Positions 7,255 to 21,856 of a stretch of DNA of 24,023 nt are shown piece after piece. Position 1 is the first letter of the stretch. Each line of letters starts with the position of its first letter. The notes beneath the pieces are model-generated. The model was not told where the DNA came from. It made no database searches and saw only the letters and a program-made list of their open reading frames with translations. Both the position numbers and the translations under genes were made by a program. The stretch spans positions 1 through 24,023 of the IMG/VR virus record IMGVR_UViG_3300029309_000346, one strand, 5' to 3'. Origin of the DNA: a virus.

Positions 7255-7551
7255 TTAAAGTCTCCTTATAAGTTCAGCCAGTTGGGGATGACCAGCATCA
7301 ACAAGCGCATTACACACAGTTGTTCGGTCACTACGAATAGCCTGTCGCATATAATTAGCAACAAGCGTCTCAATGTGCTTGGAAAAAGCACGGGCTTGGT
7401 CTCTTACGCCGGGATGCGTATTATCGGAGACCGATATGATCTTTTGGACACATTGTTCCGCAAGTTCATCTGGGGTAAATCCACGATTTTCTGTAGTATT
7501 AACGCCTACTACACTGTCATATCGTGGCACACTTATATCTATTTTGAACAT
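7255..7551 (-). CDS. Small helical conserved protein
   Basis: 98 residues. After a short strand, MFKIDISVPRYDSV, the protein is helical: FTPDELAEQCVQKIISVSDN, THPGVRDQARAFSKHIETLV, NYMRQAIRSDRTTVCNALVD and AGHPQLAELIRRL. I recall similar proteins with the ELAE...HPxxRDQA...RSDRTT pattern in marine phages, in the connector-to-tail interval, without known function. The TAATG start overlaps the adaptor stop. Its last codons carry the AAGGAG for the next gene, so expression of three genes is linked here. A tail-assembly or chaperone role is possible but unsupported. Confidence 0.68.
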   Translation of the reverse strand: MFKIDISVPRYDSVVGVNTTENRGFTPDELAEQCVQKIISVSDNTHPGVRDQARAFSKHIETLVANYMRQAIRSDRTTVCNALVDAGHPQLAELIRRL

Positions 7552-8207
7552 TATCGTTTTGTCCTGATTACTTTTCCAGTTCTATATTCATCGGTTGTTT
7601 CTTTGGCTTCACCAAGCATTTTAATTCCCATTAAAGATTCTTGAAAACGTTGATTATATACGCCCATAATATCTGGTTCACCTTTCATATAAATATACGC
7701 TTCAATTAACGACCCGTAAAGCAATGATAACTCCGCATTTTCACTAAGCCATGTTGTACTGCTATCTGTAAGGGTTGAGTCAGTAATACTTAAAGGCCTA
7801 TAAAAGTAATGGAGCTCTGCTGTATATGCAATGTCAGGCGTTGGAGCTAATAAAAAATTGTCAACGTCAAACTGAGAATAGTATCGAGGCTCTCCCGTTG
7901 TAGTTTCATCAGGCGTATACGTTTGTAAAAAACTTGGGTCTTTAAACTCTATGAAAAACTTATCTCCGTTTGTTCCGGCTAGACTTAAAGAGAACGGGGC
8001 TAAAAAGTCAGAAGGACAAGCTAAATATTTATTTGATGCCGTTGTGTTTGCCAAAACATTTTTACGAAATAAACTTAGTTGTACATTTTTAAGTATGCGT
8101 TCTTCAGCCAAACGAATAAATATAGGTAAGCTGTTTACGAAACTTGTTTCCGTATTTTCCGTATAGTCTTGTAAAGCTTGTTTTAATTGTCCGTATGTAA
8201 AACTCAT
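7551..8207 (-). CDS. Second connector/adaptor-like protein
   Basis: 218 residues. MSFTYGQLKQALQDYTENTE and FVNSLPIFIRLAEERILKNV form the helical start; PSDFLAPFSLSLAGTNGDKF, EFKDPSFLQTY, GEPRYYSQFDVDNFLLAPTP and LHYFYRPLSI form the beta part. TWLSENAELSLLYGSLIEAY and the following Tyr/Phe helix close it. The order of elements matches the adaptor at 9327-9992 (a DF-type strand, then G-x-P-x-YY, then x-x-P-x-P, a Tyr-rich strand and a C-terminal helix), so the two are likely paralogues or structural analogues. The family is that of phage adaptors below the portal. TAATG overlap with the next gene. Confidence 0.68.
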   Translation of the reverse strand: MSFTYGQLKQALQDYTENTETSFVNSLPIFIRLAEERILKNVQLSLFRKNVLANTTASNKYLACPSDFLAPFSLSLAGTNGDKFFIEFKDPSFLQTYTPDETTTGEPRYYSQFDVDNFLLAPTPDIAYTAELHYFYRPLSITDSTLTDSSTTWLSENAELSLLYGSLIEAYIYMKGEPDIMGVYNQRFQESLMGIKMLGEAKETTDEYRTGKVIRTKR

Positions 8208-8865: not shown

Positions 8866-9327
8866 CTACCCCTCGTCAAATGTATCGGATGTTGAATCTA
8901 AAGTAACAGATGTACTGTCGAACCTTGGCGCAATCGAAACTGTTGCGGCTCCCACAGCGCCTGTAGCAGCGACACCTGTAACATTAATTACATCGCTAGT
9001 TCCAGAAACATCAACAGTAACTGTCCCAACCCCACCTTCGGCAACTAAATTATTTCTAGGACTTATTCCTGGGATGTCTTTAAATCCTACAGGATTGAAA
9101 CCATATTGTATTGCTCGTTCAGCGTCTAAGTTTTGTTCTGGTCTAGGGTTCCTTAAAGCTTGAGGATCTGGAAAAGCTTTTGGGGGAAATAACTGTGGAT
9201 GTTTTGGTTCAAACTCATCTGGACCAACTAACGAACCAGTCCATTCAAGACGCATGTCTCGTAATCGATAACGCCGTCCTGATCGATCTGATATGCCGTA
9301 TGCATTTTTTCCAGAAGCAAATGCCAT
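8866..9327 (-). CDS. Putative structural protein with C-terminal TGV repeat
   Basis: 153 residues. The basic N-terminus, MAFASGKNAYGISDRSGRRY, and PxxFxPKHPQLFPPKAFPDP are of a kind I recall in marine phages next to connector genes. From about residue 92 the protein changes character: VAEGGVGTVTVDVSGTSDVI and NVTGVAATGAVGAATVSIAP are units of the same ~22-residue TGVxxTGxVG repeat that makes up the protein at 4020-4847. The tail is Ser/Thr/Asp-rich. The gene seems to be a conserved N-terminal domain fused to a short copy of a shared repeat module. Its role is probably tail or neck attachment, but this is inferred. Coupled to both neighbours. Confidence 0.7.
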   Translation of the reverse strand: MAFASGKNAYGISDRSGRRYRLRDMRLEWTGSLVGPDEFEPKHPQLFPPKAFPDPQALRNPRPEQNLDAERAIQYGFNPVGFKDIPGISPRNNLVAEGGVGTVTVDVSGTSDVINVTGVAATGAVGAATVSIAPRFDSTSVTLDSTSDTFDEG

Positions 9328-9992
9328 TAAACCCTCAAGTATTGAATACTAGGTTGTAGTTTTAAAGGAGTTCGCCCCTCATCCTCATCTGCGGCTCGTT
9401 GAAACTCTTCTTCATAAACCACTTTTAAAAGCTGAGAACGTTCAGGAGCACGTTTCATTGAGATGTAGTAAGCTAACCCCGCCACCATACAAGGAAAGAA
9501 ACGAAAAGGCATATCAGTAGTATTAACAAGAGTGTCTGCATCTTCGATCCTACGAACAAAGTAATATATCAACTGATCAGTAGAGTTTTCTGGAACAGAC
9601 CAAAGGTTTATTACAGGGTCTATTTGCCTGTCAAAATAATACTGACTAGGACGACCTTGTGTGGTTTTATTTGGTATTGTCAGATACTCACCACGACTTA
9701 TCCTTTGTATTGTAAAGTCAGTGTTATCTCTACGAAGAACAACTTCCAAAACATCAACAACATCTGAAGTCAAAGTTTGTTGGGCTTGTCCTGCTGTCAA
9801 AGTAATTGTGCCTTGATTTACAGTCCAAAGATTCAAACCTCTGTTAGCCCAATCTGCAAACATCAAGTTCAAAGACCTACGTGCCGTTTTAGCATCGTAG
9901 CCCGTTCGGACTTCTAATCCGCATCTTTCATATGCTTCCTCAATTATCTCTCCGACATCGAGGTTAAAGTCTCTTGATCCTGATGTTGTCAT
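9327..9992 (-). CDS. Head-tail connector/adaptor protein (P22 gp4-like)
   Basis: 221 residues. The N-terminal helices (VGEIIEEAYERCGLEVRTGY; TARRSLNLMFADWANRGLNL) followed by a beta region (VVDVLEVVLRRDNTDFTIQR; ISRGEYLTIPNKTTQGRPSQ) and a C-terminal helical end (VAGLAYYISMKRAPERSQLL) match the pattern of phage adaptors such as P22 gp4 and T7 gp11. These bind under the portal after packaging and carry the tail. The YYFVRRIEDAD and MPFRFFPC stretches are typical. The family call rests on this pattern and on gene order. The stop overlaps the next start (TAATG). Confidence 0.7.
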   Translation of the reverse strand: MTTSGSRDFNLDVGEIIEEAYERCGLEVRTGYDAKTARRSLNLMFADWANRGLNLWTVNQGTITLTAGQAQQTLTSDVVDVLEVVLRRDNTDFTIQRISRGEYLTIPNKTTQGRPSQYYFDRQIDPVINLWSVPENSTDQLIYYFVRRIEDADTLVNTTDMPFRFFPCMVAGLAYYISMKRAPERSQLLKVVYEEEFQRAADEDEGRTPLKLQPSIQYLRV

Positions 9993-9996
9993 TGTA

Positions 9997-10155
9997 TCAA
10001 CTCATATGTGGGTTCTGGTTTGTTTTGGTTACAACTGCACCACCGTTTTTATAGCCCATGTTGTCCAAAGCCTTTTGTGCTTTTGGGTTAGTTTTTGCCT
10101 CTTCACGGAGAGCTTTGATACCCTCATTTGGTGCTTCTTTATTTTTATTTTCCAT
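9997..10155 (-). CDS. Small Lys-rich protein with KNGG motif
   Basis: 52 residues from the ATG at 10155, chosen for the perfect AGGAGG six bases upstream. It reads MENKNKEAPNEGIKALREEA, a probable helix with KTNPKAQKALDNMG, and then YKNGGAVVTKTNQNPHMS. The YKNGG element echoes the M-K-N-G-G units of the repeat protein at 10840-11109, and the gene follows the same cluster of small basic proteins. Function unknown; a structural or DNA-binding role is only a guess from company and charge. Confidence 0.62.
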   Translation of the reverse strand: MENKNKEAPNEGIKALREEAKTNPKAQKALDNMGYKNGGAVVTKTNQNPHMS

Positions 10156-10834
10156 CGTTGTCCTCCTGATTGTAAAGATTATCAAAAACTCTATTCACAT
10201 CCAATGTATAATCTAAATCACTTTTTGAATAGTGTATATGTTGTGAAGGTCTGAAGTCTGGTGCACCCTCACCCACCGCAAACCAAGCAGGATGTGTAAC
10301 TCTTACTCGATTGTTTGGTAACGCTACTATGTTTCCTGTCCATTCTCCGGCATCTAACAGCTGCATAACATGGCTTTGTTTATGTTGTGCAGGGTCATCT
10401 GCGATTTCACTGTTGGTATAGTCTACAGTAAACAGATACTTGGCAGGAAACATTTCGCCGTTTATTTTGGCTAACCATGGGCATGGTGTAGCTCTGTCTA
10501 AGACGTACACGGAATGGTAATGAGAAGCACAATCCCAAGGCTGTGCATCATGTGTTGCCATTGGTTCAGGCCATTCTTCCAAAGGAATGTCGGCAACCAA
10601 ACCTGTTATGGGCATTCTTGCCCACATTGCACCACCGTGAACGGTATCTTCTTCTTCACCCTCCGCCTCGCAACCAGTAAAGATTACTTGAAAACTAAGG
10701 GATCTATTAGGAATGGTTGTTACGGCAACAACCATAGCATGAAGAAACTCACCGTGATACTGCTCATGATTATGTGTGTATTCACGACGAACCCATGCCT
10801 TAAAATAAGGAATATTACTTTGTAGGTATGACAT
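10145..10834 (-). CDS. Conserved hypothetical, 229 residues
   Basis: A soluble protein, rich in Trp, His and Pro: MSYLQSNIPYFKAWVRREYT, HNHEQYHGEFLHAMVVAVTT, then HGGAMWARMPITGLVADIPL and HYHSVYVLDRATPCPWLAKI. The regular mix of strands and aromatic residues suggests one folded domain, possibly beta-rich. I recall close relatives in uncultured marine phages, where it is one of the better conserved proteins, but no function is known. It lies between the basic repeat protein and the connector genes, which makes a virion or head-completion role plausible. The ribosome-binding site is weak. It overlaps the following 52-residue gene by 11 nt. Confidence 0.72.
   Translation of the reverse strand: MSYLQSNIPYFKAWVRREYTHNHEQYHGEFLHAMVVAVTTIPNRSLSFQVIFTGCEAEGEEEDTVHGGAMWARMPITGLVADIPLEEWPEPMATHDAQPWDCASHYHSVYVLDRATPCPWLAKINGEMFPAKYLFTVDYTNSEIADDPAQHKQSHVMQLLDAGEWTGNIVALPNNRVRVTHPAWFAVGEGAPDFRPSQHIHYSKSDLDYTLDVNRVFDNLYNQEDNDGK
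10162..10167 (-). promoter_or_regulatory. Ribosome-binding site fixing start at 10155
   Basis: AGGAGG on the minus strand lies six bases before the ATG at 10155. This favours the shorter reading of that gene over one starting at 10185. Confidence 0.75.
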
Positions 10835-10839
10835 TATGG

Positions 10840-11109
10840 TTAGAAGATCCTCACAGGCTTCACACCACCAACTTTACCACCTTTTTGCATTCCCTTGGGT
10901 TTGGCTTTACCGCCATTCCTCATTCCCTTGGGCTTAGACACGCCACCGTTTCTCATTCCCTTGGGTTTGGCTTTACCGCCGTTCTTCATCCCCTTGGGCT
11001 TAGACACGCCACCGTTCTTCATTCCCTTGGGTTTGGCTTTACCGCCGTTCTTCATTCCCTTGGGTTTAGTCTTGCCACCGTTTCTGTAGCCTTTTTTCTT
11101 TTTAGTCAT
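10840..11109 (-). CDS. Tandem 11-residue repeat, Lys/Gly-rich protein
   Basis: 89 residues, almost wholly repetitive. After MTKKKKGYR come six units of 11 residues with the pattern N-G-G-(KA/KT/VS)-K-P-K-G-M-(K/R/Q), then KGGKVGGVKPVRIF. The KA and VS forms alternate in the middle, giving a partly 22-residue superunit. There are no acidic residues, so it is very basic and probably disordered. Similar compact basic proteins may condense or contact DNA in the head, but this is inference. AAAGGAG is well placed before the ATG. The end shares VRIF with the upstream neighbour. Confidence 0.72.
   Translation of the reverse strand: MTKKKKGYRNGGKTKPKGMKNGGKAKPKGMKNGGVSKPKGMKNGGKAKPKGMRNGGVSKPKGMRNGGKAKPKGMQKGGKVGGVKPVRIF
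10885..11082 (-). repeat. Six tandem 33-bp coding repeats
   Basis: Residues 10-75 of the protein at 10840-11109 come from six near-identical 33-bp units (plus-strand core CATTCCCTTGGGTTTGGC). Two unit types alternate, so a 66-bp period is also visible. They keep the reading frame, so copy-number change by slippage would alter length without a frameshift. Confidence 0.9.
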
Positions 11110-11121
11110 TTAAATCTCCTT

Positions 11122-11355
11122 TCAAAAGATTCTTACTACACCACCAGTTGCTTTCTTTTGTTTCCAACTGATACGTTTTGATGATTTCTTTTTCCTTGCA
11201 GCGGATGTACATTGTGCCATGGTAGGGCGACAAGCAGGATATCCTTTTCGTTTTTCACCTTTTTGACGACCACAAGGCTTTCCAGTCTTGCAATCCACCC
11301 ATCCAGTGCCCTTGTTTTGGGAAAACCATTCTCGCAAAGAATTTTTTTTCGCCAT
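11122..11355 (-). CDS. Small Cys4 basic protein ending GGVVRIF
   Basis: 77 residues from the ATG at 11355, which overlaps the previous stop (TGATG) with AAGGA seven bases upstream. The N-terminus, LREWFSQNKGTGWVDCKTGK, leads to four cysteines at 22, 28, 42 and 49 (C-x5-C-x13-C-x6-C), a plausible zinc knuckle. A basic stretch follows, AARKKKSSKRISWKQKK, and the end is ATGGVVRIF. The WVDCKTGKPCGR...YPACRPT core is one I recall in other marine phages without a function. The final GGVVRIF is shared with the next gene (GGVKPVRIF), which suggests a common tail signal. Confidence 0.72.
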   Translation of the reverse strand: MAKKNSLREWFSQNKGTGWVDCKTGKPCGRQKGEKRKGYPACRPTMAQCTSAARKKKSSKRISWKQKKATGGVVRIF

Positions 11356-11633
11356 CAAAATGTCCTTGTTCGTTTACGACGAGACTCTTCAACTTGACCG
11401 CATCCGGCAGCTATAACTCCACCAGGGGCATACTGCTGCATTGCGGTGCGTTTTGGATTGTCTACTGAGGCTATGATTCCACCTTCAGCTTTCTTGGCAG
11501 AGTTACCCCAGTTCTTGGCTCCAACTTTTCTACACTTAGAAAGTGCCCCTGAAGCGTATGCGCTTGGCCATACTTTGTAACGGCTTTTTACTTTGTGATA
11601 ACAAGCGTCTTTTTTTGTCTTTTTCTTTGCCAT
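11355..11633 (-). CDS. Small basic Cys/GG protein with aromatic tail
   Basis: 92 residues. The N-terminal half carries a motif I recall from many marine phages, DACYHKVKSRYKVWPSAYAS followed by GALSKCRKVGAKNWG, with Cys11 and Cys34 possibly forming a metal site or helical hairpin. The C-terminal half has two Gly-Gly repeats, AEGGIIASVDNPKR and APGGVIAAGCGQVE, and ends RRKRTRTF. The name of this conserved domain is not certain to me. It starts at a TAATG overlap with AAGGGG upstream. Strong positive charge suggests binding of DNA or of an acidic partner. Virion association is inferred from its neighbours. Confidence 0.72.
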   Translation of the reverse strand: MAKKKTKKDACYHKVKSRYKVWPSAYASGALSKCRKVGAKNWGNSAKKAEGGIIASVDNPKRTAMQQYAPGGVIAAGCGQVEESRRKRTRTF

Positions 11634-11866
11634 TAGTTATCCCCTTCGATGGAGGCTTGGATACTTGCTGTCGCATCTGCGCCCTCGAGATTGCCATATC
11701 TAATCTCCATTTGAGTTTTCATAAAGTCAATTTGTGAAGCCATAACTTCTGTTCTCTTGTCTACAGCGATTAAAGTCTTTGTAACCCAATCAGCCCAACT
11801 GTAGCCAATACCCCCAACACCGAGTATAAAAGCTGTTATAAGAGCTATCGTGACTTGTTTATTCAT
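11633..11866 (-). CDS. Small one-TM protein with external coil
   Basis: 77 residues from the ATG at 11866; a GTG at 11875/11878 in the same frame is possible. The N-terminus, MNKQVTIALITAFILGVGGI, is a single membrane span or uncleaved signal. It is followed by WADWVTKTLIAVDKRTEV and a helical, mildly acidic tail (MASQIDFMKTQMEIRYGNLE). The layout resembles small phage membrane proteins with a periplasmic or cytoplasmic coil. It interrupts a run of basic soluble proteins and overlaps both neighbours by a few bases. Function unknown. Confidence 0.65.
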   Translation of the reverse strand: MNKQVTIALITAFILGVGGIGYSWADWVTKTLIAVDKRTEVMASQIDFMKTQMEIRYGNLEGADATASIQASIEGDN

Positions 11867-11871
11867 TTTAA

Positions 11872-12117
11872 TCACCACATCTTACAAGACCAGTACTTGG
11901 CCTTTAATTTATCAAGGGTGCCTTTATCACAACCGTGACGAGCACGAAAAGACTTACGACGTTTTGGGTTTGATTTCTTAATAGTCATATTGGCGTCCCC
12001 AAATCGAACTATCTTTTCCTTACCCTTGTCACACGCTTTAACAACAAACTTCTTGCCGCCAGAAACCTGACGTTTTGGTTTGTTGCACTTCATTTTGTCT
12101 TTATCGATCTTAGCCAT
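11872..12117 (-). CDS. Small Cys-containing basic protein (possible zinc site)
   Basis: 81 residues, strongly basic. Two lysine-rich segments flank a conserved-looking core: KKFVVKACDKGKEKIVRFGD, then RRKSFRARHGCD and a final YWSCKMW. Cys11, Cys29, His61, Cys63 and Cys78 could bind a metal. The RFGDxNM...RRKSFRARHGCD...YWSC signature recurs in marine phages as a stand-alone protein and, in related form, near other structural genes; its function is unknown to me. It is the first gene after a terminator and has only a weak ribosome-binding site (GAGAG), so how it is expressed is unclear. The end overlaps a TGA with the next gene's upstream region. Confidence 0.72.
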   Translation of the reverse strand: MAKIDKDKMKCNKPKRQVSGGKKFVVKACDKGKEKIVRFGDANMTIKKSNPKRRKSFRARHGCDKGTLDKLKAKYWSCKMW

Positions 12118-13047: not shown

Positions 13048-13959
13048 TTAAGCTCCAGGGGAACCAAATACACAACGTGGGTCGCTGAAGCCGAAGCTGT
13101 AACGCTCCCGAGCTTTATAGCGCATATTACCTGTGTCGAAGTCTGCTTCCATGCCAGTTGACATTGGAGTTCTTTCGAAATGTACAAAACCTCGAGGGGC
13201 ATCTGTCAAGATAAAGAATGCATCTGGATCAGTTAGGAAGTCGTTAACGGCGTAACCGTTTGGCAACATACCCATTGATCGTAGTGCGTTCACATCATTG
13301 TCAGCCGTACCAACACGAAGGTTAGATACCATCAGACGCTCTGCAACAAATTGCAATTGTCTTGGAACTAAAAGTTTCAAACCACGTAATGCAATTTTAA
13401 GACCACGCTCATCTACAAAGCCTGCGATACTTATAAGAAAATCTTCAAGAGATGTTTCGTTTAAGTCAGAGGCAGTTGCAGGTTCGTTGGCAAACGTACC
13501 ACCACTTGTGAGTGGGTGGTCAGTTGCACACAATGCTTTGCCGTCACCACCCGCAGAAGCGCCTGCGGTGAATGCATTGTTAAGAACCGCAGCGGCCTTA
13601 ACTTGCTTTGTGTGTGCCATTGAACGAGCCAACGCACGAGTATAACGTGAACCAAGACGATCATATAGATTGTCTTCGATAGCTTCCTCAGTGATTGAGA
13701 ATGCCAACGCTATTGTTTCGTGGTTGTAACGAGCAGTGTATGCTTCGTTAGCGTCGTCAAAATTTACCGCCGCACCCTCTGATTTAGTAGGTGCGGATTG
13801 GAAACCTGACAACATCACTTCTTCTTCAAATGCTCGATCTGAAGCTTCCGTGACGTAGATCTCTGTATGTTGGTTTTCGTACCTGTCGTACTCCATACCA
13901 AACAAAGCGTTGAGACCTGGTTCCAACTCTTTCGCTAGTTGTGCGCGAGATATAGCCAT
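13048..13959 (-). CDS. Major capsid protein (HK97-fold)
   Basis: 303 residues, the usual size for an HK97-fold capsid protein without a protease-cleaved delta domain. The N-terminus (MAISRAQLAKELEPGLNALF) is helical. The spine-like region runs ETIALAFSITEEAIEDNLYD, LGSRYTRALARSMAHTKQVK, and the A-domain-like part includes DERGLKIALRGLKLLVPRQL and FFILTDAPRGF. The end, RERYSFGFSDPRCVFG, is typical of this family in marine phages. It assembles the icosahedral head with the scaffold encoded upstream. A strong AAGGAG precedes the ATG. A terminator follows the stop by about 35 bases, consistent with a high-level transcript that ends after this gene. Confidence 0.9.
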   Translation of the reverse strand: MAISRAQLAKELEPGLNALFGMEYDRYENQHTEIYVTEASDRAFEEEVMLSGFQSAPTKSEGAAVNFDDANEAYTARYNHETIALAFSITEEAIEDNLYDRLGSRYTRALARSMAHTKQVKAAAVLNNAFTAGASAGGDGKALCATDHPLTSGGTFANEPATASDLNETSLEDFLISIAGFVDERGLKIALRGLKLLVPRQLQFVAERLMVSNLRVGTADNDVNALRSMGMLPNGYAVNDFLTDPDAFFILTDAPRGFVHFERTPMSTGMEADFDTGNMRYKARERYSFGFSDPRCVFGSPGA

Positions 13960-15086: not shown

Positions 15087-16019
15087 TTAATCCTTTACAT
15101 ACTTCGCATATTCCTCAAGAGGAACATTTAGCTTTTTTGCAATAGCGATCTGCGATGGTGATAGTTTCACGCTATTCTTACGCCCCTGTTTTGGATTGCG
15201 AGATGCAGATGAACCAGCAGAAGCGACCTGATTCGATCCCGATTTTTTCGCTGCTTGAAACTTGTTCGGAAACTCCGAACGCAAGCGACGATCAATTTCA
15301 CTATAATACTCATCGCTGTTCGGGTCAAACCCTTCTTCTTCGATAAGCTTTCGGTGAATACCAAACGTGGCGTAAGTCATGACTTCGTCTTGACCAAACC
15401 ACTCATTTTTTTCAGCCCAGTCTTTAGCTTTTGGATCAGGCTTTGCTTGTTGTTGTGGAGCCGCTTGTTGTTGCGGCTCAACCTGTTGCTGTTGAGGTTG
15501 TTGCTGTACTGCAACACGTTCATCCGCTTTTTTCTTAGCAAGCTCGTAGCGATCAGATTCTGCTGTTGCTCTGGCAAGAGCTTCTTGCGCAGCGGTAATT
15601 GCATCAGCGTCTCCTGACTCATAAGCTTCCTTGAACACACGTCGTGCAGCCTCTAATTGGCTTTCTACTCTTGCACCTTGTTCATTCAAATATCCAGAGT
15701 CTAAACTTTCAACACGAGTTTTAAGTTTCTGATTTTCTTGCATCAACTGTTCAGCCATACGCACGGCTTCTTCTCGTTGAAGCTGCTCATTTCTGTAACG
15801 ATCATTCAGTTGTTTGATGCGTTTTTGAACACCCTTAGAATAAGTTTCTAACTCTTCTTCTTGCGTTTGTTCTTTAGGTTTTTCTTCTTCGACTGTTTCT
15901 TCTACAGCCTCTTCAGTTGCAGCTTTAGCCTCTGGTTCAGGATCTGTTTCGATAAAAACTTCCTGTCCTTCTTCCTCAACTTCTACTTCTGGTTTTTCTT
16001 CTTCATACGTGTTTGACAT
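15087..16019 (-). CDS. Scaffold protein (capsid assembly)
   Basis: 310 residues. The composition is that of a tailed-phage scaffold. The N-terminus is very acidic (YEEEKPEVEVEEEGQEVF). Coiled-coil helices run from about 60 to 170 (VQKRIKQLNDRYRNEQLQRE and following), then a Gln-rich linker at 172-191 (QQQPQQQQVEPQQQ) and a basic C-terminal region. The last 26 residues (LSPSQIAIAKKLNVPLEEYA) could be the helical coat-binding domain. Scaffolds guide coat assembly and leave or are cleaved before packaging. The start overlaps the GroES gene by 17 nt. Its final codons carry the AAGGAT ribosome-binding site of the next gene. Position two genes upstream of the putative decoration and capsid genes supports the call. 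Confidence 0.85.
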   Translation of the reverse strand: MSNTYEEEKPEVEVEEEGQEVFIETDPEPEAKAATEEAVEETVEEEKPKEQTQEEELETYSKGVQKRIKQLNDRYRNEQLQREEAVRMAEQLMQENQKLKTRVESLDSGYLNEQGARVESQLEAARRVFKEAYESGDADAITAAQEALARATAESDRYELAKKKADERVAVQQQPQQQQVEPQQQAAPQQQAKPDPKAKDWAEKNEWFGQDEVMTYATFGIHRKLIEEEGFDPNSDEYYSEIDRRLRSEFPNKFQAAKKSGSNQVASAGSSASRNPKQGRKNSVKLSPSQIAIAKKLNVPLEEYAKYVKD

Positions 16020-16500
16020 CTGTTGGCTCCAAAATTGTAGCAATTACCTCGTCGTCATTTATGATGCGGACTTCTCCACCATCAATCTTGAAACGAGAAC
16101 CTGAATACCGACCAATGCATACCCATTGGCCTTGTTCGCACCAAGGTTGTCCCTCTGGTCCAAACTTATCTGGGTCTTTGTAAGCTAACGGTCCTAATTT
16201 AAGAACGTAGGCAACGACAGTTGCTACTGCCTCACGTTCACGTACTTCGTCTGGTACAAACAAACCACCCGCTGTCTTAGATGAACCCTGATACGGCATA
16301 ACTAAAAGTCTCCAACCAGTGGGTTGAGGAAGCCGTTCAAGTAATGATTTATCTAAAAGAGAAGGATCTAGTTCACGTTTGCCAGATTCCACGAATGCAT
16401 TTTCAACAGAGGGACTGTCCGCCTTGGCGTCTTGTCTTTCTTTGTTTACTTGTTTTGCAACGTGGTCAGGAAGATATAAAGTCTTCGACATCGTCTGCAT
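16003..16500 (-). CDS. GroES-like co-chaperonin
   Basis: 165 residues. After a charged N-terminal extension of about 57 residues, the protein matches the Cpn10/GroES fold. PTGWRLLVMPYQGSSKTAGG begins the domain, and the segment around residues 72-84 (SSKTAGGLFVPDE) corresponds to the mobile loop that docks to GroEL, with Leu-Phe-Val in place of the usual Ile-Val-Leu. EREAVATVVAYVLKLGP, the QWVCIGRYSG strand and GGEVRIINDDEVIATI complete the barrel. Phage versions such as T4 gp31 (established) replace host GroES for folding of the capsid protein. The position, two genes from the scaffold and four from the capsid gene, fits that job. The start at 16500 has a GGAG four bases upstream; a Met three codons later is possible. 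Confidence 0.85.
   Translation of the reverse strand: MQTMSKTLYLPDHVAKQVNKERQDAKADSPSVENAFVESGKRELDPSLLDKSLLERLPQPTGWRLLVMPYQGSSKTAGGLFVPDEVREREAVATVVAYVLKLGPLAYKDPDKFGPEGQPWCEQGQWVCIGRYSGSRFKIDGGEVRIINDDEVIATILEPTDVKHV
16027..16030 (-). promoter_or_regulatory. Ribosome-binding site fixing scaffold start at 16019
   Basis: GGAG on the minus strand lies seven bases before the ATG at 16019. It supports this start over an in-frame TTG at 16043, which would translate through the site. Confidence 0.65.
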
Positions 16501-16678
16501 TTTTCTCCAACAGGGTCTTGATTTCTTCTCGAGCGAAAGAGAGACCCCGTATCTCTCCCACCGTCATTTTGTATTGCTCCCAGTTCTGAACTGAACCATG
16601 AGAAAGAGCGGAACCTAAATCTTTTTCCCGCTCTTCTAATTTTTTATACATATATTTACATATGTCAACAATATCCAT
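16466..16678 (-). CDS. Small helical protein of unknown function
   Basis: 70 residues. The opening MDIVDICKYMYKKLEEREKD and the central GEIRGLSFAREEIKTLLEK both look helical, ending in an acidic DDVEDFISS. No membrane span or signal peptide is seen. Similar ~70-residue proteins with a central GSVxxWExYK motif are, as I recall, common near structural genes of many tailed phages, with no assigned role. The gene starts at a TAATG overlap and its end overlaps the GroES-like gene by 35 nt. Confidence 0.65.
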   Translation of the reverse strand: MDIVDICKYMYKKLEEREKDLGSALSHGSVQNWEQYKMTVGEIRGLSFAREEIKTLLEKNADDVEDFISS

Positions 16679-16899
16679 TAATATGTTTTTCCTCGACTAG
16701 GATCGTCCCTGACATCAGCAATACGACCACCTTCACTAAATGTTTGTGGTCTTGATGGTGGTATAAGAGACTCTGTAAGAGGACGACGTTTAGGTTTCAT
16801 CTTCTTTTTTTCTTTTGGTACTAACAGTTGATCGTCTGCTTCAGGGGGACTTACGTCAACAAACTTAAAACTTTTCTTTGGTGATGGAGGCATTGCCAT
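16678..16899 (-). CDS. Small basic protein with GG and aromatic C-terminus
   Basis: 73 residues from the ATG at 16899, chosen because a perfect AAGGAG sits six bases upstream; the longer reading would translate that site. The sequence is Pro/Lys-rich (MAMPPSPKKSFKFVDVSPPE, KEKKKMKPKRRPL) and probably disordered. It ends FSEGGRIADVRDDPSRGKTY. The Gly-Gly followed by an Arg-containing tail and a final aromatic residue recalls the small basic proteins encoded at 10840-11633. No function is known. Its stop overlaps the next ATG (TAATG). Confidence 0.65.
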   Translation of the reverse strand: MAMPPSPKKSFKFVDVSPPEADDQLLVPKEKKKMKPKRRPLTESLIPPSRPQTFSEGGRIADVRDDPSRGKTY

Positions 16900-18905: not shown

Positions 18906-19382
18906 CTACCATCTACCTTGCCATTGACCTAAAATATAAAACCCAACAAAAAGTATGCTACCACCAATAGCAAAAATAGCCGCACCAATTCCAAAATTAA
19001 TAAGACTATCAATTTGTGCTTGTTTCCTGTATAATTCGTCCTTCCGTCTTTTTCGCATCTGTGCCTCTATCTGCAAAACCTCATCCCATGCAGATTTGCC
19101 ATAATGCCAGGTAATGTGTTCTTTGATCTCTGCCCTCATTTGTTCCATCTTTTTCTTGTTAGCAAAGATCTCAATAGCGGTTTCTTCGTCAGATCCCTTA
19201 AATGTTTTTTTCCAAAATGGTGGGTTTTTTTCTCGTTCTTCTATATTGGTAAAATCAGAAAAAGCCTTGCCCCACTGGGAAAGCTGACCTGTCATATCTT
19301 GTAGATCTTTCCCCGCTCCTATAGCACCCTTGAGAGCCTTAAATGCGCCAGTGGCTAAAGCAACACAAGATACGGGGTCCAT
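18906..19382 (-). CDS. Conserved one-TM phage protein (function unknown)
   Basis: 158 residues. The N-terminal third is small-residue rich (ALATGAFKALKGAIGAGKD). The middle is highly charged and helical (MEQMRAEIKEHITWHYGK, then IEAQMRKRRKDELYRKQAQ), and one clear hydrophobic span lies near residues 130-152 (IGAAIFAIGGSILFVGFYIL). The C-terminus, GQWQGRW, is short. I have seen proteins with the same opening (MDPxSCVALATxAF) and NPPxxKK centre in marine T4-like and podovirus-like phages, always without a known function. It starts at a TAATG overlap with the portal stop and is followed with no spacer by a 53-residue gene. Its place at the head of the membrane/lysis block makes a membrane role during lysis or DNA ejection possible, but that is inference. 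Confidence 0.75.
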   Translation of the reverse strand: MDPVSCVALATGAFKALKGAIGAGKDLQDMTGQLSQWGKAFSDFTNIEEREKNPPFWKKTFKGSDEETAIEIFANKKKMEQMRAEIKEHITWHYGKSAWDEVLQIEAQMRKRRKDELYRKQAQIDSLINFGIGAAIFAIGGSILFVGFYILGQWQGRW

Positions 19383-21856
19383 TAGCCACCTCGTTGCATC
19401 TTCTGACGTTGCACATCGATACGCTCACGATTCACTGCATTACGGTCATCAGCAATTTCTTCCTGAGTTTCTAATCGAGCAGCATCAGATGCGGCTTGTT
19501 GTTGTAATTTAGCAACTTCAATATCAAGTTTGTTCTGATCGTTTTGTACGTCCGCCTGTAACTCTGCTTGTTTCAGTCCAAGCTCTTGCATACGGAGTTG
19601 TACTAACGGATCAGCCGCCGGATTCGGTGGAGGAGGCGTAATCATCTGAGCAACCTGTTGAACAATTGTTTGTTGAATCTGAGCCACAACTCGAGCCATA
19701 CCGTTTGGATCTTGCATCTGCATTTCCATTTGTTGCATCTGCATTTGAGCTTCTTCTGGAAGTATACCACCAGTTTGAACAAGAAGTTGTATTTGCTGCA
19801 TCTGTTGTTGTATTTGCTGCATCGCCTGTTCCTGTGCCAAAAGAGATATATGCTCTTGTAAATGACCATATAATGCCCCCTGTGCAGGAGCAGACGCCAT
19901 AATTAAAGGCGTTTTCAAAAAGGCTACATGCGCCATAATGTGTGCGTTGTGATCCTGACCCTCAAACGCTTGAATAGTTTTGCCTTTTATAACCAGAGCA
20001 TTTTCCAAAGCCGGATCTGTTGGTTGTGGTTGTGGTTGCGGAGGCAACACTTCGTCTATGTTTTGAATCTCCAGAGCTTGATACATACGACGATACGCAG
20101 CGTGTAGGTTGTGCATCTGTGGATTAGATTGAGCAAGCTGGAGTTGACTTTGTGCTAAAGACACACGTTGTGCCATAGAAAAGATGTTTGGGTCACTGAC
20201 GGGCAGGATATCGACCCGTCCGTCAAAATCTGTAACCTTTATGGCAGAGTCTGCATTCGCCACTGGATATGGATACGACTCTGGTAAATTCTCCGCAATA
20301 ATCCGTGCAAGAATACGAAACTCGTTTTTCTGTGCATAGTGTAGCCGTTTGTGGATTGCTGACATAACTTTCATGCCGCGCTCCAACATAGCCACTGTAG
20401 TACCTACGGGCATCTCCTGATTCATGTTACTTACGGCATTGTCCGCAACTGAAACAAATCTTCTTCCGCCTTCTACGAGTGCTCCTAGAAGCTGTGCGAG
20501 TGTACCTGATGGTTCTTTGTATGGTAACGGAATAATAGAATCCCGTATGTTCCCCCCAGGTGCATCAATATCCCGCCACTCACCCGGTTGTAACGGTTCA
20601 TCATCGTTGCGAACCCTTACGCCCCTAGCCTTGAATCCTGCTGGGAGGTTTGCAAGAGTTCCTGCATCGATCAATTGTCGGAGGAGACTCGTTGCTGCAC
20701 GACCAAGGCCACCAATCATGTGAGTCAAACCAAAGCCGTAGAAACCTAGACCAGGCATGAACTTGTAGTGAACAAAGTATTGAATCTTTTGTTTGAAAGG
20801 ATCTCCCTCCATATAGTTCCTACGAATGGCAAGAATCTTAGAACTATCCCGATCCAGTGTTACAATGTATGGTAGTTTAATGCCTGTTGGCTCTCCGCTT
20901 TCGTCAACGTCCTCAAAACCCTCAAGATCCAAGTCAATGTGCATCTCTAGAATTGTTCTAACGTCATCGGTGTAAGACTTCGATGTCCCCTGTAATTCGT
21001 CAACTTTCTGACGCACAGGGTTTTCTTCCTGATCCCCTGAGTTAGAAAGCTCCACATCTCTGTACATTCCCATGACTTGTTGCTTACGCAAATCGTTATC
21101 TGACATCTTCAGAACATGCGTGATCCGTGGTGCAGTGGCTAAATCACTGGCAGAATACGGAACAACTACGTCTTGCGCCGGAACAAACTTGGCAACAGGG
21201 CGGTTACGAACCGTGTCGTAGTATACTTTCTTAAACGTAGAACCAGACAACGGCAGATAAAACAGCAACTGATCCATGTCTGGATCGAACTCTTCCATCT
21301 CTTCTGTGATCAAATAGTTCATGTAATCCTTGACACGTTTGGCTTGCGCCTCTGTTTCTTGGTTTTGTAATCCGGCAATCCTTGTTTTTACAGGACCACC
21401 AGAAGGAAGAAGTTCTTTGTATGCTTGCGCTTGGAACTGTGTGACACTCTCCGAAATCAACGGATGCGTTACACCACTGGCACCCTGAAAAGGTTCAGAA
21501 CGTTCAATCGTCTTAACACCCAATAGATCAAGACCCTTGGTGTAAGTTTCTTCCCACTCGTCTCTCGATTCAGTGTCATCCTCAAATGAAGCTAACAAGT
21601 CATTGGATATTTCACCCATGTCACTTTCGTTAAGAAACTCAGCAAGGTTGGCATCAAATGGAATCTGTTCCTCCACCATCTCACCAATCAAAGCTTCCGC
21701 CAGAGCTTGCACGATTGCCCCGCCCTCACCGTCTGGTATGACTTCCGCTCCGTTCTCAAACATCTCTACTTGTGCCACAGGGACTTCAACCGACACTTCG
21801 TCAGCTACCATGTCCTCGGCTCTGATTCCTGAATCTACTAGAGGTGGGATTGCCAT
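19382..21856 (-). CDS. Portal protein
   Basis: At 824 residues this is a large portal, in the size range of P22- and T7-group portals plus extensions. It should form the dodecameric DNA gate at one capsid vertex and bind terminase and the connector proteins. An acidic N-terminal ~100 residues precede a conserved-looking core starting GVTHPLISESVTQFQAQAYK (about 128-147). The core includes MRRNYMEGDPFKQKIQY-like stem/wing segments and VGTTVAMLERGMKVMSAIHK, a typical portal crown helix. From about residue 668 the protein becomes a Gln/Met-rich helix (MQQIQQQMQQIQ, MQMQQMEMQMQ) followed by a long charged coiled-coil tail. It lies directly after terminase with a 1-nt overlap. The family is inferred from position, length and core pattern, not from a database match. 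Confidence 0.88.
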   Translation of the reverse strand: MAIPPLVDSGIRAEDMVADEVSVEVPVAQVEMFENGAEVIPDGEGGAIVQALAEALIGEMVEEQIPFDANLAEFLNESDMGEISNDLLASFEDDTESRDEWEETYTKGLDLLGVKTIERSEPFQGASGVTHPLISESVTQFQAQAYKELLPSGGPVKTRIAGLQNQETEAQAKRVKDYMNYLITEEMEEFDPDMDQLLFYLPLSGSTFKKVYYDTVRNRPVAKFVPAQDVVVPYSASDLATAPRITHVLKMSDNDLRKQQVMGMYRDVELSNSGDQEENPVRQKVDELQGTSKSYTDDVRTILEMHIDLDLEGFEDVDESGEPTGIKLPYIVTLDRDSSKILAIRRNYMEGDPFKQKIQYFVHYKFMPGLGFYGFGLTHMIGGLGRAATSLLRQLIDAGTLANLPAGFKARGVRVRNDDEPLQPGEWRDIDAPGGNIRDSIIPLPYKEPSGTLAQLLGALVEGGRRFVSVADNAVSNMNQEMPVGTTVAMLERGMKVMSAIHKRLHYAQKNEFRILARIIAENLPESYPYPVANADSAIKVTDFDGRVDILPVSDPNIFSMAQRVSLAQSQLQLAQSNPQMHNLHAAYRRMYQALEIQNIDEVLPPQPQPQPTDPALENALVIKGKTIQAFEGQDHNAHIMAHVAFLKTPLIMASAPAQGALYGHLQEHISLLAQEQAMQQIQQQMQQIQLLVQTGGILPEEAQMQMQQMEMQMQDPNGMARVVAQIQQTIVQQVAQMITPPPPNPAADPLVQLRMQELGLKQAELQADVQNDQNKLDIEVAKLQQQAASDAARLETQEEIADDRNAVNRERIDVQRQKMQRGG

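Follow-up and report, generated by a model that had tools for sequence, protein, structure and literature searches.

The window examined here is the whole of IMG/VR record IMGVR_UViG_3300029309_000346, a marine podovirus-type contig of 24,023 bases with nearly all of its predicted genes on the minus strand, and the present work concerns six small proteins encoded in it (P1 to P6). In five of the six a conserved tail follows a Gly-Gly hinge at the C-terminus, P1 being the exception. Profile searches of the window identified the large subunit of the terminase, the portal, a GroES-like co-chaperonin, the major capsid protein and two SU10-type adaptors. From the capsid gene to the first adaptor the order is capsid, two small genes, P1, a membrane-like gene, P2, P3, P4, the gene of a 229-amino-acid (aa) protein and P5; P6 is placed upstream of the GroES-like gene, apart from this block. 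A preliminary description of this DNA had situated the small proteins between head genes and connectors, and this siting was confirmed, the flanks being the capsid gene with its two small neighbors and the SU10-type adaptors. All the open reading frames (ORFs) that it listed were found at their positions, on the minus strand.

The kinship that the preliminary description saw between the tails of two neighbors is borne out by GGVVRIF and GGVKPVRIF on the adjacent genes at 11122 and 10840, and the Cys and Gly-Gly content that it reported agrees as well, with Cys counts of 4, 3 and 4 in three of the proteins. Its claim of strong basicity holds for P1 to P4, with net charges of +20 in 81, +17 in 92, +19 in 77 and +30 in 89 residues, respectively, and fails for P5, which is weakly basic (+3 in 52), and P6, which is moderately so (+6 in 73). 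Likewise, P1 does not belong to the tagged set, and its aromatic end is not one of the tags: YWSCKMW is part of the conserved domain of the protein, and none of 33 P1 relatives is tagged.

At least four tail types are well sampled, one of them adjoining the portal gene, and the system is wider than first described. These types were set by regular expressions as T1 (GG[LV]VR[VI]F), T2 (GCGxVxxxRRKxT), T3 (RGQGxVMxDRLR-type) and T4 (RGMGAAx[RK]GxKF; a tail type, not the phage of that name), and gene calls in the metagenomic loci are heuristic. T2, T3 and T4 were searched in IMG/VR as DNA patterns without a stop codon, and among the matches listed all 80 for T2 end 3-8 residues from the stop, all 80 for T3 lie exactly at it and all 78 for T4 end 2-10 residues from it. 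With its stop codon included, the T1 pattern was found in 20 stretches, every one in a P3 or a YPSAYAN core. The tails are repeated on unrelated cores across hundreds of IMG/VR contigs, which confirms the earlier claim of a short C-terminal tail common to otherwise unlike proteins; BLAST leaves the carriers of T2 in at least 11 separate core groups and those of T4 in at least 22, and some T2 proteins, of 34-37 aa, are almost tail alone. A search of IMG/VR with P3 yielded 589 relatives in 600 candidate stretches. In the 80 relatives kept the core is conserved and the end is exchanged in whole blocks, being GGLVRVF (T1), ...IARGCGKVMNNRRKxTKxY (T2, of the same kind as the P2 tail), ...TIRGQGVVMRDRLR (T3) or none, and the Gly-Gly hinge is nearly invariant in the alignment of this family (A2). 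In the P2 family, a tail of the form RGFxN[ML]LxxKRxKTKxx resembles a T2 variant.

The proteins are modular, and their cores and tails have been exchanged in evolution. In the fetched loci, T1 occurs 47 times, T2 11 times and T3 3 times in the P3 family; the WVRI family carries T2 (71), T3 (2) and T1 (1), the P2 family T2 (64) and T3 (10), and the YPSAYAN family T3 (51), T2 (22), T1 (2) and T4 (2). Mapped onto the adaptor tree, the carrier of T2 switches at least 9 times between superfamily A, that of P3, and superfamily B, that of P2, compared with about 46 times for shuffled labels, and the T1/T3 state switches once.

The tails are also kept as protein, under purifying selection. Among 65 distinct P3 sequences with a T1 tail, the last seven codons and the core give the same ratio of nonsynonymous to synonymous codon differences, 0.17, and the invariant residues of T2 and T3 are written with two to six codons. 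The preliminary description had staked its proposal on the conservation of tail residues in homologues, and this conservation was found. Because codons vary while residues stay, a role of the tails at the nucleotide level, as an RNA element or a ribosome-binding site, was rejected. It could still be argued that the tails are recombination joints, gene ends spread by homologous exchange with no function of the peptide or kept as the ribosome-binding site of the next gene; in fact, tails switch between neighboring genes of one operon, and the P2 tail overlaps the start of P3. Nevertheless, with synonymous positions varying freely beside invariant residues, and with tails preceding many different downstream genes, this explanation is extremely improbable.

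Tagged genes are confined to the head-connector blocks of one capsid lineage. Of the 466 tagged genes whose locus also holds a homologue of a head or connector gene, all are on the strand of that homologue and 465 are at most 3 kilobases (kb) away from it; carriers of T1, T2 and T3 lie mostly between the capsid gene and the first adaptor, and T4-tail carriers beside the portal and terminase genes or between two adaptors. Homologues of the structural genes of the window are present in 114 of 117 tagged loci of at least 8 kb as opposed to 3 of 17 untagged loci, most of which have the same cores. Since tblastn of a T2 peptide against named phages gave a single record, the capsid protein was used to find named relatives; these include the Pelagibacter phages HTVC023P and HTVC027P, the lake phage DSL-LC04, the cyanobacterial phage Pag-Yong1, the Roseobacter phages CRP-901/902 and Caulobacter phages. 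Gp32 and gp51 of HTVC023P end in T4 tails, and similar ends occur in DSL-LC04 and Pag-Yong1; CRP-902, an Alcaligenes phage and a Caulobacter phage show no tag by these patterns, and HTVC027P none by the four main ones. A stricter T2 pattern gave 7 matches in 257 gigabases of bacterial and archaeal genomes, about 4 of them on phage-like genes, and this near-absence indicates that the tag belongs to viruses.

Taken together, position, conservation, swapping and context argue for a peptide that is recognized, as the C-terminal end of its chain, by a partner particular to this virion lineage. We hypothesize, with a probability of roughly one half, that the tails are C-terminal docking or packaging tags which place small proteins in the virus particle. 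Each protein would be a two-part module, with a variable core, a Gly-Gly hinge and, at the C-terminus, a conserved tail of about 7-20 residues that serves as an address: during assembly this tail would attach the protein to some component of the prohead or of the connector. Every tail type would have a docking place to itself, and that of T2 would be filled by one protein per genome. Carriers of T1, T2 and T3 would be made between the capsid and adaptor genes and T4-tail carriers mostly around the portal gene, cores being swapped behind the tags through recombination at the hinge. Docking would occur on shell, scaffold or connector, and the core would thereby be built into the particle, most probably alongside the DNA within the head, and may be delivered together with it. 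Purifying selection and confinement to head-connector blocks are as expected of the targeting signal that the preliminary description had suggested; entry into the prohead, binding of DNA and binding of zinc, its other suggestions, are putative.

A further feature of these loci is that tails exclude one another. T2 is single in all 240 deduplicated loci having it and never occurs twice, a rule that covers the stretches examined rather than closed genomes, the loci being genome fragments. When proteins of both superfamilies are tagged in one locus, the tags differ in 85 of 89 pairs; about 22 same-tag pairs are expected by shuffling, and never fewer than 12 were obtained in 10,000 shuffles, but this excess of unlike-tag neighbors is only indicative since shuffling ignores relatedness. 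The single T2 per locus and the unlike tags of its neighbors suggest distinct places of docking more than a single label for all that is packaged. We tentatively put forward a code of several addresses, a possibility rather than an expectation, in which each docking place would be read by its own tag type, that of T2 being filled by one protein per genome with differently tagged neighbors, and cores would be exchanged freely.

The same counts would be expected under the main rival explanation, namely that the tail is the conserved foot of a virion subunit (a decoration, a vertex plug or a connector collar) whose cores are interchangeable exposed domains, as in head fibers, with nothing packaged or delivered. 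The T4-tail carriers around the portal and between adaptor genes also fit such structural anchors, as does the motif MAISRAQ, common to small proteins and the N-arm of the capsid protein. However, the strong basicity and high lysine content of the cores would suit proteins that touch DNA better than domains on an exposed surface, and some carriers are almost tail alone; we consider this explanation rather unlikely. If, on the other hand, the tails were only DNA- or metal-binding extensions with no addressing role, the basic residues of RRKxT and the one conserved Cys of T2 would be accounted for. Few charges and no conserved Cys are found in GG[LV]VR[VI]F of T1 or in RGMGAAxRGGKF of T4, and neither a strict C-terminal position nor a single T2 per locus is needed to bind DNA, which makes such a role very unlikely.

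Evidence from virions bears on the cores. Marine T4-like phages possess a long protein (T4-GC119, phrog_727) that strings P2-like and P3-like domains together, and in S-SM1 its gene is found downstream of the small-terminase gene. In S-CREM2, ORF160 (128342-129235, matched to the published coordinates) holds a P3-like and a P2-like domain, and it was detected with 7 unique peptides in virions purified in cesium chloride (CsCl) (PMC10665884 Table 3). The tagged proteins might instead be assembly or host-directed factors absent from the virion, the tails binding the GroES-like co-chaperonin, the scaffold or a host protein in late infection, as could be proposed from the operon that they share with the GroES-like and scaffold genes and from the lack of virion data for tagged proteins. 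Nevertheless, the presence of a relative with two of the cores in CsCl-purified virions, and the fact that tags follow the capsid and adaptor lineage, render such factors unlikely.

Several points weigh against the proposed docking tags. ORF160 of S-CREM2 has no tag, and consequently the virion data support the cores and not the tag; no published virion proteomics was found for any tagged phage in the main text and tables of open-access papers. The receptor on which the tails would dock is hypothetical, and the structure model of P3, built with an alignment, is of low confidence (mean predicted local distance difference test, pLDDT, 62). The untagged CRP-902, P-SCSP2 and C72C1 make the same cores from similar places, so that the tag is not required for core function everywhere. 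Finally, a T2 tail that never occurs twice per locus is easier to reconcile with a single structural position than with a label for cargo in general.

Table 1. Small proteins, their C-terminal tags and neighboring features of the window
Feature	Position	Strand	Matches and remarks
P1, 81 aa, basic, 4 Cys, distantly DUF5754-like, untagged	11872..12117	-	phrog_7595, E 7e-16
P2, 92 aa, basic, core KKDACYHKVKSRYKVWPSAYASGALSKC (superfamily B) and GCG-type tail	11355..11633	-	phrog_727, E 1.2e-21
P2 C-terminal tag GGVIAAGCGQVEESRRKRTRTF, type T2	11358..11423	-	tail shared by at least 11 core groups not linked by BLAST
P3, 77 aa, basic, core LxxWF..GWVDCKTGKPCGR..YPACRP (superfamily A) and VRIF tail	11122..11355	-	alignment A2
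P3 C-terminal tag GGVVRIF, type T1	11125..11145	-	kept in 65 distinct homologues; T2, T3 or no tail in other relatives
P4, 89-aa repeat protein, (KPKGM[KR]NGG)n and VRIF tail	10840..11109	-	
P4 C-terminal tag GGVKPVRIF, type T1	10843..10869	-	KPVRIF also in relatives with different repeats (L004, L016)
P5, 52 aa, Gly-Gly hinge, tail KTNQNPHMS (10000-10044)	9997..10155	-	KTNQNPHMS on unlike cores in L004, L034, L035, L118
P6, 73 aa, end GGRIADVRDDPSRGKTY (tail 16681-16731)	16678..16899	-	GG..VR...RGKTY end on unlike cores in L048, L064, L065
Major capsid protein (MAISRAQLAKELEP...)	13048..13959	-	PF25209, E 5e-12; phrog_371; lineage marker of tagged phages
SU10-type adaptor, downstream edge of tagged block	9327..9992	-	PF24175, E 5e-14
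Second SU10-type adaptor	7551..8207	-	PF24175, E 2.9e-23
Portal protein	19382..21856	-	phrog_1216, E 3.5e-55
Probable scaffold, coiled, acidic, upstream of capsid	15087..16019	-	phrog_28737 (no function assigned); role inferred from position
Phage GroES-like co-chaperonin, in head operon	16003..16491	-	PF00166; phrog_3188
Non-basic, membrane-like gene inside block	11633-11866	-	
229-aa acidic protein, between tagged genes and adaptor	10145-10834	-	phrog_3704, labelled ferredoxin, E 5e-26
Overlapping ORF MAISRAQMRQQVSKPPSKGITNGK...	11536..11697	-	N-terminal motif as in major capsid protein; out of frame with P2

Comparisons of the individual proteins with known families and structures gave few matches (Table 1). 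P1 scores 19.9 bits against DUF5754 (PF19058), under the Pfam cut-off of 27.4, and by score is not a member. The match of P2 to phrog_727 covers positions 263-310 of the profile, and P2 relatives are present in 366 phage records; no Pfam family was matched by P2 or P3, P2 remaining below the gathering score of DUF5872. At the thresholds used, no relatives of solved structure were found for P1, P2, P3, the capsid protein or the adaptor. The pLDDT of the P3 model was too low for a fold search, and the capsid protein folded without an alignment gave an uninformative model (pLDDT 34). A joint alignment of P2 and P3 was set aside, its P2 rows being misaligned. The small virion proteins ORF009 and ORF020 of the siphovirus P-SS2 were considered as members and rejected on reading their sequences.

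Other features of the small proteins and their relatives were observed along the way. In the T4-like cyanophage protein (L085 3029-4618, L331 2029-3516, L332 2242-3135), mini-domains are split by the acidic linkers EEVxxE and EETxxE, which could be prohead-protease sites that free separate small proteins in the head. In Vibrio phage ICP1 (L212 4425-5261) a P1-like domain forms the C-terminus of a protein, the N-terminal part of which we take to be of the prohead-protease type, and the gene lies a few genes upstream of the capsid gene. At the N-terminus, the motif MA[IT][ST]R[AGS]Q[LM], which reads MAISRAQ in the capsid protein, is common to this protein and to unlike small proteins, some of them tagged, and its codons vary. 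In L125, L132, L164, L189 and L345 the motif shares its reading frame with a superfamily B core, and L117 and L128 have it as well; in the window, the MAISRAQ-type ORF overlaps the start of P2 out of frame. In the Roseobacter phage CRP-902 (L482), the unlike proteins gp65, gp66, gp68 and gp72, encoded between the portal and GroES genes, have the common start MANP[VI]K. This related phage lacks C-terminal tags, and the shared start may be their equivalent at the N-terminus. Some tagged small proteins start with a single dockerin- or EF-hand-like loop DLTGDGKVTKKDVL (L010, L027, L035, L043, L046, L118).

Among the small proteins of marine phages, many are hypothetical and show conservation in pieces only. 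If the tag is readable, the head-associated proteins of this phage lineage could be listed from sequence alone, the tag would point to a docking partner that might be found by structure, and the capsid lineage, to which widespread Pelagibacter phages belong, would gain a packaging tag. With one tag on different cores, a direct test of how virion cargo evolves by modules is also at hand. Were several addresses in use, the tails would amount to a modular addressing code for virion proteins in globally abundant marine podoviruses.

No earlier description of these tails was found in the open-access literature, including a text search for the tag strings and the paper on the HTVC023P-type genome. 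A T2-tagged YPSAYAN protein scores above the cut-off of DUF5872 (PF19197), and the RRKSYCAR protein of HTVC027P is a member of DUF6321 (PF19846); in none of the DUF matches seen does the alignment extend to the tag. The phrog_727/T4-GC119 protein of marine T4-like cyanophages shares the P2-like and P3-like domains, but it is one long multi-domain chain without C-terminal tags and belongs to a different head lineage. The encapsulin shell has the HK97 fold, and its cargo peptide is placed after a flexible linker. This short terminal peptide recruits unrelated cargo (PMC7355545), and the tails described here are likewise short terminal peptides on unrelated proteins that follow a flexible linker. 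Encapsulins, however, are cellular compartments, whereas here the capsid is that of a phage, several tag types occur per genome and binding to the shell is putative. In phage T4, the capsid-targeting sequence (CTS) is N-terminal and is removed by the prohead protease. The internal proteins of T-even phages are diverse and conserved only in this CTS (PMC3012670), and the tags resemble that of IPI-III and Alt in being one short conserved sequence on otherwise diverse small proteins of the head region. In contrast to the CTS, the tags are C-terminal, of several types and, as far as can be told from the sequence, uncleaved; no sequence similarity is claimed and, given the position at the other terminus, neither is membership of the CTS family. 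The best reading is of several kinds of tag that are functionally like the CTS of phage T4 but sit at the opposite terminus.

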